Assembly (NCBI RefSeq): GCF_030433675.1
Contig: NZ_JAROCB010000001.1
Location: 955,632 to 1,019,631, forward strand
Origin: Leifsonia virtsii
Lineage (GTDB): Bacteria > Actinomycetota > Actinomycetes > Actinomycetales > Microbacteriaceae
Length of the DNA stretch: 64,000 nucleotides
Reading direction: 5' to 3'
Below, piece after piece: positions 31,551-39,973 of this stretch. Every line of letters starts with the position of its first letter. Positions within the stretch are counted from its first letter, which is position 1. The notes below the pieces were generated by a model that had not been told where the DNA came from, did no database searches, and worked only from the letters and a program-made list of their open reading frames with translations. A program made the position numbers and the translations under genes.

Positions 31551-33446
31551 TCAGCCGATCTGCTTGGCCGCGACGAGACCCTGGGCGAAACCGAGCAGGC
31601 GGATCTTGTCCTTCGACCCGACCGGCGGGACGTAGAACATCAGCTGGTAGTCGAACACCGACTCGACACCGGTGTTGGAGGAGGCGATCCCGCTCAGGGC
31701 GGCGGTCGTGGCGCCGGGAATGACCTGCGCGCCGGCCTCCACGACCTTGTGCAGCTGGGTCTCGCGGGGGTTGACCCAGACGATGGCGCCCGAATCGTTG
31801 GTGGCCATCGCGAGCACGTCTCCCGGCCCGACCCCCGGCGTCCAGCTCAGGGCGGAGGTGTTGCCGAACTGCTGGGCCAGCTGCTGCTGCTGCTTGAGCT
31901 TCCACGCCGCGCCGACCTGGGGCTGCAAGGTGTCGCCGGCGGAGTCGAACTGGCTCGCGTACTGGCTCTTGTCGCCGTTCATCAGGATGTCGCCGTACGC
32001 GGCGGCCACCTTCGCGGGCGGCAGGGCGAGCAGCTTCGAGTCCGGCGGCACGACGGCGGATCCGATGCTCGCCGGGGCGAGGTTCGGCACCTTCGCCTTC
32101 GGCTCGAGCGAGACGGCGTACTCGACCTTGTAGTTGTCGCGCGGCGTCTCCTGCACCATGGTCAGGGCGATGGGCGCCTGAGCGTTGCCCTTCGCGTCCT
32201 TCGGCGAGTCGATCACCGCGGCCACCGTGCGCGGCCAGGCGTCGGTCGCCTGCGGGAGGGACAGCACGATCGGGCTCGCCGGGATGGCCGGGAGCGCCGG
32301 CTCGTCCGCCTTCTTGGCGCGGATGGCGTAGTTCGCGGTGCGCAGCTGCAGCGCCGGCCCGACGAAGCGTGCCTTGGCCAGGTCGGGGCTCGCCTTCGCG
32401 TCGGCGTCGGCGGCGGACTCGGAGATGCGCTTGACGATGCGCTCCAGCTGCGGGACGGTCACCGCGGGCGGCAGCTGGTCCTTCGCGTCGGGCGCCTCGG
32501 TGGCGAGCGGCGTCGCGGTCTTCGTCGGGGTCGTGGCCGCATCCGTGCCGGTCGTGCAGCCGGTGAGGGCCAGCGCGCCGATCAGGGCTGCGGGGAGCAT
32601 GACGCGGGCGCGGCGGGTCGAGCGACGGCCGCGGGGGGTGGATTCGATCATGGCGGTCGGCTTGTACTTGGGCGCCTTCGGCAGCTTCGGCATCTTGGGG
32701 CCGCTCTTCCGGCGCGGGCCGCGCGAGCGGCGGTGCGCGTACAGGCCCCACAGGTAGAGGGCGATGCCGATCACGAGGAGGATCAGGCCGCCGATGATGA
32801 GCGGGAACGCCCACGGCGTGCTGGAGTCGACCGGCCAGGTGACGCTGACGTTCGACGGCGCCGCCTTCGTACCGTCGGAGGCGACGATGACGCTCACGTC
32901 GTCCGGGATGTTCATGCGGGTGACCTGCGCGGCCGTCCCGTCGAACTCCTCCAGCCAGAGGTCGGAGCCCGCGGGGTTCGGACCGGCCTTCGAGGCGGTG
33001 TCCGCCGTCGTCGCGGAGCCGGTGCCGGTCGCGGCGCCCGCGGCCGGAGTCGATGTGGGCGCCGGAGTCGAGGTCGAGGTCGAACCGCTGCCGCTGCCCT
33101 CGCTCGCGGCCTTCGGCGTGACGGTCTTCGTGGCGAGCTTGCCCGTCGCCTTCTGATAGCTGACGGCCACGTAGCGCTGGTCCCCGAGCCACGCCTTCAT
33201 GTCCGCTGTACGGCCGTAAGCGACCACCTGCTTGCCCGGCTCCGGCGTTCCGGTGACCGTGAGCGTCTGCTGACCGGGGTGCGCGTTCAGCACGGAGCCG
33301 TCGATCACGACGTAACGGGGATCGCCCGACACGGTCGTCGCCGCCTTGATGCTGGTCGGCGGAGCGAAGACGGTGCGCTGAGCGATCCCGGCGACGATCA
33401 TGACGGCGGCCACGACGAACGCGACGATGGCGAGTACGAAACGCAA
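31551..33446 (-). CDS. Large membrane protein with an internal lipobox-like segment
   Basis: A 631-residue protein of unknown function in two parts. Part one: a membrane segment (residues 3-22), an extracytoplasmic domain with a Ser/Thr/Pro/Ala linker (about 115-150), a second membrane helix (213-234) and a basic cytoplasmic loop rich in Lys, Arg and Pro (238-282). Part two starts with RRARVMLPAALIGALALTGC, which looks exactly like a lipoprotein signal with lipobox LTGC (Cys ~297), followed by a ~330-residue domain. No stop or frameshift separates them. The start is a TTG at 33446 with GAGGAG upstream. It is divergent from the coiled-coil gene. Confidence 0.75.
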   Translation of the reverse strand: MRFVLAIVAFVVAAVMIVAGIAQRTVFAPPTSIKAATTVSGDPRYVVIDGSVLNAHPGQQTLTVTGTPEPGKQVVAYGRTADMKAWLGDQRYVAVSYQKATGKLATKTVTPKAASEGSGSGSTSTSTPAPTSTPAAGAATGTGSATTADTASKAGPNPAGSDLWLEEFDGTAAQVTRMNIPDDVSVIVASDGTKAAPSNVSVTWPVDSSTPWAFPLIIGGLILLVIGIALYLWGLYAHRRSRGPRRKSGPKMPKLPKAPKYKPTAMIESTPRGRRSTRRARVMLPAALIGALALTGCTTGTDAATTPTKTATPLATEAPDAKDQLPPAVTVPQLERIVKRISESAADADAKASPDLAKARFVGPALQLRTANYAIRAKKADEPALPAIPASPIVLSLPQATDAWPRTVAAVIDSPKDAKGNAQAPIALTMVQETPRDNYKVEYAVSLEPKAKVPNLAPASIGSAVVPPDSKLLALPPAKVAAAYGDILMNGDKSQYASQFDSAGDTLQPQVGAAWKLKQQQQLAQQFGNTSALSWTPGVGPGDVLAMATNDSGAIVWVNPRETQLHKVVEAGAQVIPGATTAALSGIASSNTGVESVFDYQLMFYVPPVGSKDKIRLLGFAQGLVAAKQIG

Positions 33447-33638: not shown

Positions 33639-36473
33639 GTGGCCACCGACGAATCCAACTTCACGCAGGTCTTCCGCGGGTACGACAAGGACGAGGTCGA
33701 CAAGGCGCTGCAGGAGCTCCGCCGCGAGCTGATCAAGTCGAACACCCAGGCGGCGGACGCCGCGAAGGAGATCAAGCGCCTCCAGGCCCGCATCGAGGAC
33801 CTGAACGACGAGATCGAGGAGGTCGGCAGTCCCACCTACTCCGGCCTCGGCACCAAGCTCGAGAACACCCTGAGGGTGGCGGAGGAGCAGTCGACGCGCC
33901 TGATCGCGCAGGCCGACATCGACGCGGAGAAGCTGCGCGCCGGCGTCAGCGCCGAGGTGGAGAAGGTCAAGAAGGCCGCGGCCGCTCAGGCGGAGCGCAT
34001 CCTGGCCGACGCCCAGGCCCGCGCGACCACCCTGCTCGAGGACGCCCAGATCGAGTCGGGCGAGCTGCTCACCAAGACCCGCGCCGACAAGGAGACCCTC
34101 CTCACCGACGCGATGCGCGAGGCCGCCGCGATCCGCGGCGCGGTCGCGACCGAGGCCGCGGAGCTGCGCGCCACGAGCAAGCGGGAGGCCGCCGCCGTCC
34201 GCGCGGAGGCCGACCGGGAGGCGGCCGAGCTGAAGGCCGTCGCCTCGCGCGAGGCGGAGGCCGCCCGCGCCGAGGCCGCGGAGCTCGACCGGACCATCGC
34301 CGAGCGCCGGGCCGAGCTCGAGAACGCCCTGGCCGACGACCGTGCCGCCTTCGAGCGCGAGGCGGCACAGATCCGCCTCGATCTGGACCGCCGCGTCGCC
34401 GAGACGAACGACCGCCTCGCCGCGCAGGAGGCCGAGACCCGCAACGCCCTCGCCGCCGAGGCCGCGCAGGCCAGGGCCGACCTCGCCGCCGAGGTGGAGG
34501 AGCAGCGCGCCGCGCTCGCTGCCGACGTCGCCCAGACCCGCGCCGACCTGGAGAACGAGGACGCGACCACCCGGCAGGCCCTCGCCACCGAGGTCGAGCA
34601 GACGAAGAAGGCCCTCGCCGCCGAGGTCGCCCAGGCGAAGTCCGCCCTCGCCGCCGAGACGGAGCAGACCCGCTCCGCGCTCGAGAACGAGGTCACCACC
34701 ACGCGGTCCGCCCTGGCGGACGAAGTCCAGCGCACCAAGGCCGAGCTGGCCGACGAGGTGACCCGCACCCGCTCCGCCCTGGCCGAGGAGGTCGCCCGCA
34801 CGAAGTCGGAGCTGGAGACCGAGGTCACCACCACACGATCCGCCCTCGAGAACGAGGTCACCTCCACCCGCGCCGCCCTGCAGGACGAGGTGACCACGAC
34901 GACGTCGGCACTGGCCGAGCAGGTCGAGCGGACGACCAAGCAGCTCGCCGACGACGAGCTGCAGACGCGCAGCGCTCTGGAGAAGGAGTCCACCGAGACC
35001 CGTGCCGCGCTGGAGGCGGACCGCGTCGCGACCGCCGCCGCCCTCGCGGCCGACCGGGAGCAGACCGCGAGCGAACTGGCGGCCGAGGTCGAGCAGACCC
35101 GCACGCGCCTCGCCGCGGACGCCGAGCGGCAGCGCCGCGAGCTCGAGGCGGAGGCGGCGCAGCTGCGGGCCGACCTGGCGACCGAGGTCGACACCGCGCG
35201 CACCGCACTGGCGGACGAGATCGCCCGCGAGCGCAGCGCCGTCGAGGCCGAGCTCGCCGCCGAGCGCGCCCGCCTCGCCGCCGAGGTGGAGTCGACCACC
35301 ACCGCTCTCGCGGCGGAGGTCGCCCAGACGAAGTCGGCCCTCGAGACCGAGGTCGCCACCACGAAGGCCGCGCTCGCCGCCGAGGTGGAGCAGACGAAGT
35401 CCGCCCTCGAGACCGAGGTCACCACGACGAAGGCCGCCCTGGCCGACGAGGTGGAGCGCACCCGCACCGAGCTGGCCGCCGAGGTCGAGCAGACCAAGGG
35501 CGAGCTTGCGGCCGAGGTCGAGCAGACGAAGTCCGCCCTCGAGACCGAGGTGAGCACCACCAAGGCCGCCCTCGCCGCCGAGGTCGAGCAGACGAAGTCC
35601 ACTCTCGCCGCCGACCGCGAGCAGACCGCGAGCGAGCTGGCCGCCGAGACGGAGCAGACCCGCTCCCGCCTGGCCGAGGACGTGCGCCGCACGACGGTCG
35701 AGCTGGAGGACCTCCGGACCACCACCGCCACCGAGCTGGCCGACCAGCGCGAGCAGCAGCGGCTGGAGCTGGAGCGCGAGGCCGAGCGCACGCGCGTCGA
35801 GCTCGCGACGGAGACCGAGCAGTCCCGCGTCGACCTGGAGAAGGAGACGGCCCAGGCGCGCGCCGCCCTCGCCGCCGAGGTCGCCGAGGCCAGGACGTCG
35901 CTCGAGGCCGAGCTGGCCGAGCGGAAGGCCGCGTTCGAGCAGGAGGCCGCCGGCGCCCGCGCCGCCCTCGAGAGCGAGCTCGCCACGCTGCGCACCATGA
36001 CGCAGAAAGAGGCGGAGGCCCGCAGGCACGAGATCGAGCAGGCCCGCATCGACCTCGACGTCGAGCTGCGCGCTCGCCGCGACGAAGCGGAGAAGGAGTA
36101 CCTCGCCCGGCACCAGGAGGCGGTGGCGCAGACGCAGAAGTACCTGGACGAGGCGAACGTGCAGCTCGCCGACGCGGTGAAGCGCACAGCGCAGGCCCGC
36201 TCCGAGGCGGAGGCCTTCGAGGCCGAGGCGCGACGCACCGTCACCGAGGCTCGCAAGCAGGCCGAGGAGACCGCCTCCGAGGTCATCCGCGACGCCGAGG
36301 AGCGTTCGGCCGCCCTCCTGGAGGAGACGGAGGAGCGCACGCAACGCCTGGTCGCCGACGCGGAAGAGCGGCTCGCCCAGATTAGGATCGAGCGAGAGGC
36401 CGTCGCCGGGTACTTCGAGAACCTGCGCGGTGTACTCCAGCAGGCCGAGAAGGCGACCGCCGACCGCGAGTGA
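33639..36473 (+). CDS. Giant hendecad coiled-coil protein with DivIVA-like N-terminus
   Basis: A 944-residue, almost entirely helical protein. The N-terminal SNFTQVFRGYDKDEVDKALQ matches the membrane-targeting start of DivIVA/Wag31 proteins. From about residue 270 to 786 the sequence is ~47 uninterrupted 11-residue repeats, typified by ALAAEVEQTKS and ALETEVTTTKA, with hydrophobic residues at fixed positions. It contains no enzyme motif. The organisation recalls the Streptomyces polarity proteins Scy and FilP, and I infer a scaffold or intermediate-filament-like role in polar growth or the envelope. The GTG start follows CAGGAG. An AI-2E-type permease follows 31 bases downstream. Confidence 0.85.
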   Translation: MATDESNFTQVFRGYDKDEVDKALQELRRELIKSNTQAADAAKEIKRLQARIEDLNDEIEEVGSPTYSGLGTKLENTLRVAEEQSTRLIAQADIDAEKLRAGVSAEVEKVKKAAAAQAERILADAQARATTLLEDAQIESGELLTKTRADKETLLTDAMREAAAIRGAVATEAAELRATSKREAAAVRAEADREAAELKAVASREAEAARAEAAELDRTIAERRAELENALADDRAAFEREAAQIRLDLDRRVAETNDRLAAQEAETRNALAAEAAQARADLAAEVEEQRAALAADVAQTRADLENEDATTRQALATEVEQTKKALAAEVAQAKSALAAETEQTRSALENEVTTTRSALADEVQRTKAELADEVTRTRSALAEEVARTKSELETEVTTTRSALENEVTSTRAALQDEVTTTTSALAEQVERTTKQLADDELQTRSALEKESTETRAALEADRVATAAALAADREQTASELAAEVEQTRTRLAADAERQRRELEAEAAQLRADLATEVDTARTALADEIARERSAVEAELAAERARLAAEVESTTTALAAEVAQTKSALETEVATTKAALAAEVEQTKSALETEVTTTKAALADEVERTRTELAAEVEQTKGELAAEVEQTKSALETEVSTTKAALAAEVEQTKSTLAADREQTASELAAETEQTRSRLAEDVRRTTVELEDLRTTTATELADQREQQRLELEREAERTRVELATETEQSRVDLEKETAQARAALAAEVAEARTSLEAELAERKAAFEQEAAGARAALESELATLRTMTQKEAEARRHEIEQARIDLDVELRARRDEAEKEYLARHQEAVAQTQKYLDEANVQLADAVKRTAQARSEAEAFEAEARRTVTEARKQAEETASEVIRDAEERSAALLEETEERTQRLVADAEERLAQIRIEREAVAGYFENLRGVLQQAEKATADRE

Positions 36474-36504
36474 AGCTGCCCGCGACCGACCATAGGGGGA
36501 ACCC

Positions 36505-37542
36505 GTGAAGATCCAGAACCCGTTCCGCCTCGGACTGATCGGCACCCTCGGCGTCGGGCTCGGGATCCTCATCCTGAGCGCCATCACGAGCCTGGCGACG
36601 ATCATCACCTACATCGGCGCGGCGCTGTTCCTCGCGCTCGGCATCGAGCCGCTGATCTCGTTCCTCGAGCGCAGGCGGTTCCCCCGCTGGCTCGCGCTTG
36701 TCGTCACCCTCGTGATCATCATCGGCGCGTTCGTCGGACTCATCTGGGCCATCGTGCCGATCGCGGTCGGACAGGCCACGCAGCTGGTGCAGAACACCAT
36801 CTCCTGGGTGAACAACGGCGGCGCGGAGGACTGGTTCCTCAGCCTTCAGCACCAGTTCCCGTCGGTCATCAACCAGCAGAACATCGACGCGGTCACCCAA
36901 TGGCTGCAGCAGAACCTGCCGGACATCACCTCGAAGGTGCTGCAGACGGGCGTCGGGATCGTGCAGGGCGCCTTCGGCGTGATCATCGTCATCATCCTGA
37001 CCATCTACTTCACGGCGTCGCTGCCGAGCATCAAGCGCTCGGCCTACCAGCTGGTCCCCGCCTCCCGCCGGGCGCGCTTCGCCGACCTCGGCGACCAGAT
37101 CACCGACTCGGTCGGCAAGTACGTCATGGGCCAGGTGGCGCTGGCCCTCGTCAACGGCGTGCTGAGCGCGATCTTCCTGACCGTGATCGGAGCGAAGTTC
37201 CCCATCCTGCTCGCCTCGATCGCGTTCTTCTTCTCGCTGATCCCGCTCGTCGGAACCATCACCGGCTCGGTCATCATCGTGGCCGTGTGCTTCCTGTCCG
37301 GGACGCCGACCGCGATCACCGCCGCCATCTACTACCTGATCTACATGCAGGTGGAGGCCTACTTCTTGAGCCCGCGCATCATGAACCGGGCGGTCTCGGT
37401 CCCCGGAGCCCTGGTGGTCGTCGCCGCCCTCGCCGGCGGCACGCTGCTCGGCATCCTCGGCGCGCTGGTCGCCATCCCGTTCGCCGCCGCGATCCTGCTG
37501 ATCGTCAAGCAGGTCGTCATCCCGCGCCAGAACGAGCTCTAG
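36505..37542 (+). CDS. AI-2E/PerM-family transporter
   Basis: A 345-residue polytopic membrane protein of the AI-2E transporter (PerM/YdbI) family. There are about eight hydrophobic segments: two near the N-terminus (LGLIGTLGVGLGILILS and ITYIGAALFLALGIEPL), ALVVTLVIIIGAFVGLIWAI, a soluble helical loop (about 95-145), and the conserved C-terminal block FPILLASIAFFFSLIPLVGT and GGTLLGILGALVAIPFAA. The family exports small molecules or ions; real substrates are mostly unknown. The GTG start lies 31 bases after the coiled-coil gene, suggesting co-transcription. Confidence 0.85.
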   Translation: MKIQNPFRLGLIGTLGVGLGILILSAITSLATIITYIGAALFLALGIEPLISFLERRRFPRWLALVVTLVIIIGAFVGLIWAIVPIAVGQATQLVQNTISWVNNGGAEDWFLSLQHQFPSVINQQNIDAVTQWLQQNLPDITSKVLQTGVGIVQGAFGVIIVIILTIYFTASLPSIKRSAYQLVPASRRARFADLGDQITDSVGKYVMGQVALALVNGVLSAIFLTVIGAKFPILLASIAFFFSLIPLVGTITGSVIIVAVCFLSGTPTAITAAIYYLIYMQVEAYFLSPRIMNRAVSVPGALVVVAALAGGTLLGILGALVAIPFAAAILLIVKQVVIPRQNEL

Positions 37543-39427: not shown

Positions 39428-39973
39428 TCAGCGAACCGCCAGCATGACGTCGGTGACGCTGTCGAGCAGGAGGTCGACCTGCGCCTCCCGGTATCCGCCC
39501 CGTTGTTCGCGGAACGTGACCGTGCGCACCTCCTCGACGCTCATCGGACGGCCGTCCTGGAAGTAGCGCACCAGCCGGTTCGCGAAACGGTCGACGTCGT
39601 TGCGGTTGTAGCCGAGAGTGAGGAAGCCGACGCGGTCGAAACGGTGCCCGAGCGGACGATCGAGCCGGTTGAGCACGACCTGCGCGGTGGTGCGCGCCTC
39701 CTCGTACCAGGCGGCGTCGCCCTGACGCGCTCGCGCGTTCTCGCGCTCACGCGCCGCGAAGGCGTCCTCCAAGCGCTCCAGGGCCGCATCCACGTGCGTG
39801 GTGGAGTAGCCGCCCTTCGCCATCGAGAAGGCCGTGTGGCGGATGTCGGCGGCCGTCAGGGCGGGCGCGGTCTCGTCGCCGTCGTACGCGCGGCGCGCCG
39901 TCTGCAGGAATTCGTCCACCTGCTCGACGTCGTATCCCGGCGCGGACTTGGGGCTGCGGGGGAAGGTGCTCAC
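39428..39973 (-). CDS. DivIVA-domain protein
   Basis: A 181-residue protein with three DivIVA-like GY-x(4)-VD motifs: GYDVEQVDEFLQTARRAY near the N-terminus, KGGYSTTHVDAALERLEDAF near residue 55 and LGYNRNDVDRFANRLVRYF near 120; a variant (RGGYREAQVDLLLDSV) lies near the end. There is no long coiled coil, so it is not a canonical Wag31. It starts with GTG 12 bases after cdsA on the same strand and is probably in that operon, which links it to membrane synthesis or division. Precise function unknown. Confidence 0.8.
   Translation of the reverse strand: MSTFPRSPKSAPGYDVEQVDEFLQTARRAYDGDETAPALTAADIRHTAFSMAKGGYSTTHVDAALERLEDAFAARERENARARQGDAAWYEEARTTAQVVLNRLDRPLGHRFDRVGFLTLGYNRNDVDRFANRLVRYFQDGRPMSVEEVRTVTFREQRGGYREAQVDLLLDSVTDVMLAVR

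Follow-up and report, generated by a model that had tools for sequence, protein, structure and literature searches.

What is the role of a 944-residue protein that carries a long row of 11-residue repeats (hendecads) behind a DivIVA-like N-terminus, and how does the length of such a rod change in evolution? The question is raised by a gene in a 64,000-nucleotide stretch of Leifsonia virtsii DNA (contig NZ_JAROCB010000001.1, positions 955,632 to 1,019,631; this whole stretch is called the window), whose open reading frame (ORF) was confirmed as a preliminary description had placed it, with a GTG start (Table 1). The answer we favor is that the protein is probably a FilP-type member of the FilP/Scy group with a hendecad-lengthened rod, which would work like FilP at the growing pole.

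First, the rod contains an uninterrupted hendecad array. The preliminary description had counted about 47 hendecads between residues about 270 and 786, which is an understatement: 52 follow each other without a skip (residues 210–781), and position 7 is L, I, V, M or F in each of them, from the unit that starts at residue 210 to the one that starts at 771. Fourier analysis of hydrophobicity in residues 270–790 decided for hendecads and against heptads, with a peak at 3.667 and a power of 9.65 at 11/3, compared with 0.04 at the heptad value of 3.5 and 0.24 at 51/14. The 11/3 phase is nearly constant, at about 93–121 degrees, from approximately residue 177 to 792. Positions 7 and 11 together hold 77 of the 86 LIVMF residues between residues 265 and 786, whereas 2000 shuffles, with the best register allowed, gave 34 or fewer. 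The strip formed by T3, L7 and V11 has E/D on one side (94% at position 10) and R/K on the other (83% at position 4), which fits a coiled coil with interhelix salt bridges. The earlier estimate of about 75 nm is right for 520 residues, and the full rod, measured between the GLG hinge and the tail block, is longer (849 residues, or ~127 nm at 0.15 nm per residue).

Second, the length of the rod changes mostly in steps of 11 residues. Rods were measured from the GLG hinge (N anchor) to a profile-defined tail block (C anchor), which replaced an earlier C anchor set by a regular expression, and few residue classes were obtained with either. With the regular-expression anchor, all 28 proteins compared (the window protein, 26 same-genus relatives and one protein from another genus) gave a distance divisible by 11, over ten lengths from 473 to 1012. 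In a larger set of 185 proteins, comprising 110 from the window protein's family and 75 from twelve other families, 58 rod lengths (197–1068) were found, yet these fall into six residue classes modulo 11. Class 2 has 89 rows, with the window protein (849) among them, and class 10 has 57, to which ten other families (Streptomyces-like FilP included) contribute all of their rows and two more a part of theirs; the remaining classes are 6 (22 rows), 9 (9), 1 (4) and 3 (4). On a tree built by a quick method from head and tail only, the 185 proteins require 65 length changes and 8 changes modulo 11, whereas the control moduli 7, 8, 9, 10, 12 and 13 require 54, 53, 52, 60, 58 and 60 changes, respectively, on the same tree. 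According to one parsimony reconstruction, 54 of the 65 length steps are exact multiples of 11. Four of the 8 class changes are plus 4 or plus 7 modulo 11, corresponding to one stutter or heptad, and the other four are not. On a tree of 114 rows, the rod showed 38 length changes versus 3 modulo 11, and the tail length, used as a control, showed 29 versus 28. The length of the neighboring PolyDIV protein spans 178–192 aa within the genus.

The rod is not equally variable in all lineages. It has 197 residues in FilP of all 21 Streptomyces-like genomes, and it is constant at 448 residues by the regular-expression anchor (442 by the profile anchor) in 50 of the 114 rows, mainly in Cryobacterium and Agromyces. 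Since rods are constant in these lineages and variable in Leifsonia, the length is held in some and free in others. The rows were picked by hand for family spread and not at random, and long frames of two families (f9 and f10) were included deliberately. Sequences were fetched for 40 of 52 matching relatives (26 of 27 in the same genus), for 19 and then 16 more of 147, and for 60 of 142, and four identical proteins were removed. The 114-row set skipped 8 rows, of which L062, L063, L065 and L068 returned in the set of 185 and L060, L117, L135 and L172 were never counted; L208–L210 (no parsed ORF), L096, L097, L099 and L100 (not parsed) and L095 (no C anchor) were left out. Family f10 (L186–L196 and L071) has very long rods, with 702–1068 residues in 12 of 13 rows, and its own classes 9 and 1 modulo 11.

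Third, the two ends of the rod match FilP. The DivIVA-like N-terminus noted earlier is real but distant. The DivIVA-domain model TIGR03544 matches the head at 26.5 bits (cut-off 22), and a 37-row head profile compared with solved structures found first DivIVA of Bacillus (2wuj, E 3.5e-4) and GpsB. PF05103 scored 18.9 bits on the whole protein against a cut-off of 28, and in a genome search the head piece scored 26.9 bits, or 38.2 with neighboring matches in the same frame. For the head, AlphaFold2 (AF2) predicted a helix at residues 17–62, a break at 63–67 and then a second long helix, with a predicted local confidence (pLDDT) of 84; behind the RGYDxxEVD motif a heptad coiled coil is described for the FilP/Scy group (PMC9858780), and the local period here is 3.39 over residues 1–66 and 3.56 over residues 23–88. 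BLASTP against Streptomyces-like FilP aligned the head at E 2e-9 and the tail at E 1e-4, in the same order, and profile comparison by hhalign gave 96.5% (E 9e-10) for the head and 92.7% (E 4e-7) for the tail; these FilP genes were assigned from the FilP sequence, the adjacent Scy-like gene and the 51/14 period of that gene. In the preliminary description the protein had been likened in idea to Scy and FilP. This comparison was right, and for FilP it can be sharpened to homology at both ends rather than just analogy. The protein itself is not Scy: Scy rods peak at 51/14 and its own at 11/3.

The gene is present as a single copy in the genome, and the head was found in 27 of 27 same-genus relatives with one match each. 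In the relatives' search, no match was obtained for G028, G029 and G034, which belong to the same family. In another genus of this family (g33), none of 7 genomes matched at 1e-10 and 3 of 6 gave weak matches at about 1e-7 to 5e-8; the gene appears to be absent or very diverged there. Within the hinge, G69, L70 and G71 are invariant in 17 aligned rows. An in-frame start codon lies 66 residues from the GLG hinge in 35/35 rows of relatives, in one set of which the starts had been picked nearest to that place. Twelve residues precede RGYD, and F8 is invariant (17/17 rows). A hydrophobic residue stands just before RGYD in 179 of 185 proteins; it is F in 88 of the 89 members of the window protein's modulo-11 class, and R is found there in the five Streptomyces-like FilPs. 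In Bacillus DivIVA, the F before RGYD is said to insert into the membrane, as reportedly found by Oliva et al. in 2010. By analogy, the FilP branch that has F at this place may touch the membrane itself, and membrane targeting through FRGYD is plausible.

The residues of the rod are under purifying selection, as its low ratio of nonsynonymous to synonymous substitution rates (dN/dS) and its position-specific conservation indicate. In 12 Leifsonia orthologues, whose rods differ at 21% of their residues, the head has a dN/dS of 0.09, the rod 0.23 and the tail 0.17; within the rod, the value is 0.16 at positions 3, 7 and 11 and 0.24 elsewhere. Identity is highest at hendecad position 7 (95%), followed by positions 10 (87%) and 3 (85%), and it is 69–79% at the others. 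Equal length (944 aa) was the criterion by which these orthologues were selected, so the absence of indels among them does not count as independent evidence.

Taking these data together, the following mechanism can be proposed. A DivIVA-like, dimer-forming head would expose a hydrophobic FRGYD loop toward the membrane, and an alpha-helical coiled-coil rod would link this head to the conserved tail. In the Leifsonia lineage, whole-hendecad additions would have extended the rod to about 850 residues (about 127 nm). We propose that its length changes mostly in steps of 11 because the core strip must keep its phase from head to tail; selection for phase, acting beyond slippage, would then be behind the modulo-11 rule. 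Parallel coiled-coil units could associate both longitudinally and laterally into a stiff subapical network. Connected to DivIVA and to the membrane of the pole, this network would give mechanical support to the growing pole. FilP has been described as a 37-nm rod with 60-nm striations, the loss of which gives crooked hyphae (PMC6599971). Judged by its sequence, the window protein is most likely an intermediate-filament-like rod at the pole, with FRGYD as its membrane tip. Such a rod may be polar and may sense curvature, as the preliminary description had suggested.

Several observations weigh against this reading. Within the rod, core position 11 is just 77% identical among the orthologues while position 10, which is not a core position, reaches 87%. 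The core itself, taken as the residues within 20 degrees of its center, consists of V (37%), L (24%) and A (10%), in contrast to Ala contents of 64% in FilP and 74% in Scy. A hendecad core position that faces the axis is reported to require a small residue, Ala above all, unless the oligomer is of higher order, and the dimeric FilP and Scy are described as Ala-rich at this position (PMC9858780). With Val/Leu in place of Ala, the window protein may form an oligomer other than the FilP dimer. AF2 did not predict the short N-terminal helix in the head, and the full-length monomer was predicted at a pLDDT of 66 with breaks inside the rod, which we did not use as evidence given the low confidence and the single chain. 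The BLASTP and hhalign scores can be inflated by coiled-coil composition, those of the tail above all; the RGYD and GLG motifs make the head match safe, and the tail match is less safe. The conserved neighbors, which are genes for a thioredoxin-TPR protein, an AI-2E transporter and PolyDIV, differ from the crotonyl-CoA reductase and epimerase genes reported near Scy and some FilP (the latter genes were not searched for). Finally, DNA identity at a shift of 33 bp is raised in 11 of 11 rods (lowest in FilP, at 0.44, and highest in a long Leifsonia rod, at 0.57), compared with means of 0.34–0.37 at other codon shifts, so slippage alone could in principle supply steps of 33 bp.

This last point leads to the alternative that survives best, although we consider it unlikely as a full account: the steps of 11 would be a pure mutational by-product of slippage or unequal recombination in a 33-bp array, and no selection for phase would be involved. 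Repeat finding and Tandem Repeats Finder (TRF) showed the gene to be a diverged 33-bp tandem array with 60–80% matches and no recent large duplication, and the shift-33 identity is raised in short rods too. The Leifsonia rods, whose values are among the highest (0.55–0.57), vary much, and the rods of Cryobacterium and Agromyces (0.48–0.50) and of Streptomyces-like FilP (0.44) hardly vary, as this alternative would have it. On the other hand, an identity between neighboring units of just 0.44–0.57 over whole rods is a poor substrate for slippage today. The strong conservation of position 7 and the rod dN/dS of 0.16–0.24 also count against this alternative, but they speak of selection on residues and not on length. 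Repeat supply and phase selection are not mutually exclusive; we think that supply of repeats and removal of out-of-phase changes both act, and the data do not separate them.

A more far-reaching version of the FilP reading is doubtful, and we regard it as less probable still than slippage alone. FilP-group rods would be phase-locked molecular rulers, in which selection would hold the head, the core strip and the tail to a single rotational phase; the filament unit would be tuned mainly in 11-residue (about 1.6-nm) steps throughout the class and retuned repeatedly in lineages such as Leifsonia. The Val/Leu rod of Leifsonia, being unable to pack as the Ala-core FilP dimer, would be a three- or four-stranded, slightly right-handed cable, and hence a distinct bacterial intermediate-filament architecture.

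The remaining alternatives concern the identity of the protein. It was considered whether its 11-residue helices lie on the membrane as amphipathic helices, as in apolipoproteins or alpha-synuclein, instead of forming a coiled coil. The Pfam apolipoprotein family was matched at E 6.8e-20, apolipoprotein chains were the top PDB matches of the whole protein in a single-sequence search (in which 2wuj reached only E 0.12), and the 11-residue periodicity is common to both kinds of helix. We rejected this explanation as very unlikely, on the score and on the composition of the helix faces: PF01442 reached 72 against a family cut-off of 90, and the non-polar strip is narrow (three positions, or about 65 degrees on an ideal helix) and runs between an acidic and a basic flank, in a rod segment (residues 265–786) that has a net charge of -50 and no proline.

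Orthology to Scy, the long polarity protein of Streptomyces, is suggested by the similar size, the hendecad-dominated rod and the DivIVA-like motif, and we found it just as improbable as the apolipoprotein-like explanation. The repeat of Scy is described as 51 residues per 14 turns (PMC3718342), and the period that we measured in Scy rods, 3.640–3.6435, agrees with 51/14. The window protein has an N-terminal segment, which Scy reportedly does not have (PMC9858780), it is the only copy in its genome, and its head matches FilP, a comparison that was made with FilP heads and not with Scy heads. Scy rods follow the modulo-11 pattern in a weaker form, with 9 lengths in 4 classes modulo 11 among 13 measurable rods and 7–8 classes for the moduli 7, 9, 10, 12 and 13; of the 21 Streptomyces-like loci, six were without a Scy frame (L253–L256, L258 and L261) and two Scy frames (L083 and L247) were without a C anchor. 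That the protein is this organism's polar DivIVA/Wag31 with an unusual rod, as the TIGR03544 match and a weak match of the Wag31 equivalog model NF050102 over residues 13–260 might suggest, is hardly credible, because that model scored 26.1 bits against a cut-off of 260 and a second DivIVA-domain gene elsewhere in the genome (G000:C2:351182) scores 52 bits to PF05103, the model on which it was scored instead of the Wag31 model.

Table 1 Parts of the rod gene and neighboring genes (positions in the window)
Feature	Coordinates	Strand	Basis or remark
Whole gene, putative FilP-group protein with elongated hendecad rod	33639..36473	+	GTG start, 944 aa
Head, residues 1–62: DivIVA-like domain (short N-terminal segment, FRGYDKDEVD motif, first coiled-coil helix 17–62)	33639..33824	+	TIGR03544, 2wuj profile match, AF2
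FRGYDKDEVD motif, residues 12–21; F12 aligns with F of FRGYD in Bacillus DivIVA	33672..33701	+	
Hinge GSPTYSGLG, residues 63–71, conserved; N anchor for length measurements	33825..33851	+	AF2 helix break
Proximal rod, FilP-like, residues 72–209: near-hendecad, single phase shift near residue 180–200	33852..34265	+	
52 uninterrupted hendecads, residues 210–781; contains the length-variable part of the rod	34266..35981	+	33-bp DNA periodicity
Conserved tail, residues 782–944, terminating in IRIEREAVAGYFENLRGVL and a short end; matches FilP C-terminal part; C anchor	35982..36470	+	
AI-2E family transporter (PF01594)	36505..37542	+	31 bp downstream of rod gene; 189 bits
PolyDIV protein (TIGR03543, 227 bits)	39428-39973	-	3 kb from FilP-type gene
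631-aa frame divergent from rod gene, N-terminal hydrophobic segment, no Pfam family	31551-33446	-	

The surroundings of the gene are conserved among its relatives. In 79 of 80 relatives the AI-2E gene follows the rod gene on the same strand, with a gap of 10–69 bp in 74 and 104–734 bp in 5. The two genes are probably co-transcribed, and rod and transporter may be linked; this conserved pairing joins a transporter gene with a cytoskeletal one. In the flanks of the 80 relatives (up to 6 kb), the thioredoxin-TPR gene was found in 78, PolyDIV in 67 and CdsA in 65. None of the window neighbors searched for was matched in five Streptomyces-like FilP loci. An antisense open frame of 835 aa (33986-36493, minus strand) covers most of the rod gene and is probably a by-product of its GC-rich, repetitive codons.

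Bacterial intermediate-filament-like proteins are known from few species. The family described here is not new, since both the spread of FilP and its hendecads have been published. The DivIVA-like superfamily has been defined, with a FilP/Scy group that spans <200 to >1000 residues and in which FilP heptads are reported to be gradually expanded by hendecads (PMC9858780), and FilP orthologues were described as apparently very widespread in actinobacteria, with Leifsonia xyli in the genome list (PMC4255298). The literature searched, with subscription papers outside its scope, yielded no statement of the modulo-11 rule and no study of this Leifsonia protein; both the rule and the extreme form with pure hendecads look new. 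Particularly, the relatives provide a natural series in which one homologous protein spans about 30 to 160 nm between fixed ends, mostly in one-hendecad units. Using this series, filament spacing, stiffness and polar position can be tested directly against rod length, which bears on why rod length matters. In addition, few changes modulo 11 among many length changes is an unusually clean evolutionary signature that can be sought in other coiled-coil cytoskeletal proteins.

Compared with the known systems, the window protein is closest to FilP of Streptomyces, with which it shares the DivIVA-like head, the GLG hinge, a hendecad-containing rod and the tail block, and the rods of both follow the same modulo-11 scheme (class 10 in FilP and class 2 in the window protein). 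It differs from FilP in having 849 residues instead of 197 between the anchors and Phe instead of Arg before RGYD, besides the Val/Leu core. With DivIVA/Wag31 it has in common the RGYDxxEVD motif and the helix after it, but it falls below the cut-off of the Wag31 model, and DivIVA is mostly heptad-based and much shorter. Scy belongs to the same superfamily and also has a very long, hendecad-dominated rod, in which, unlike the 11/3 rod of the window protein, a 51-residue repeat with a period of 51/14 and an Ala core is found, and its gene adjoins that of FilP. PolyDIV is a further member of the superfamily, described as having several domains per chain and no long rod (PMC9858780), in contrast to the window protein with its extended hendecad rod.

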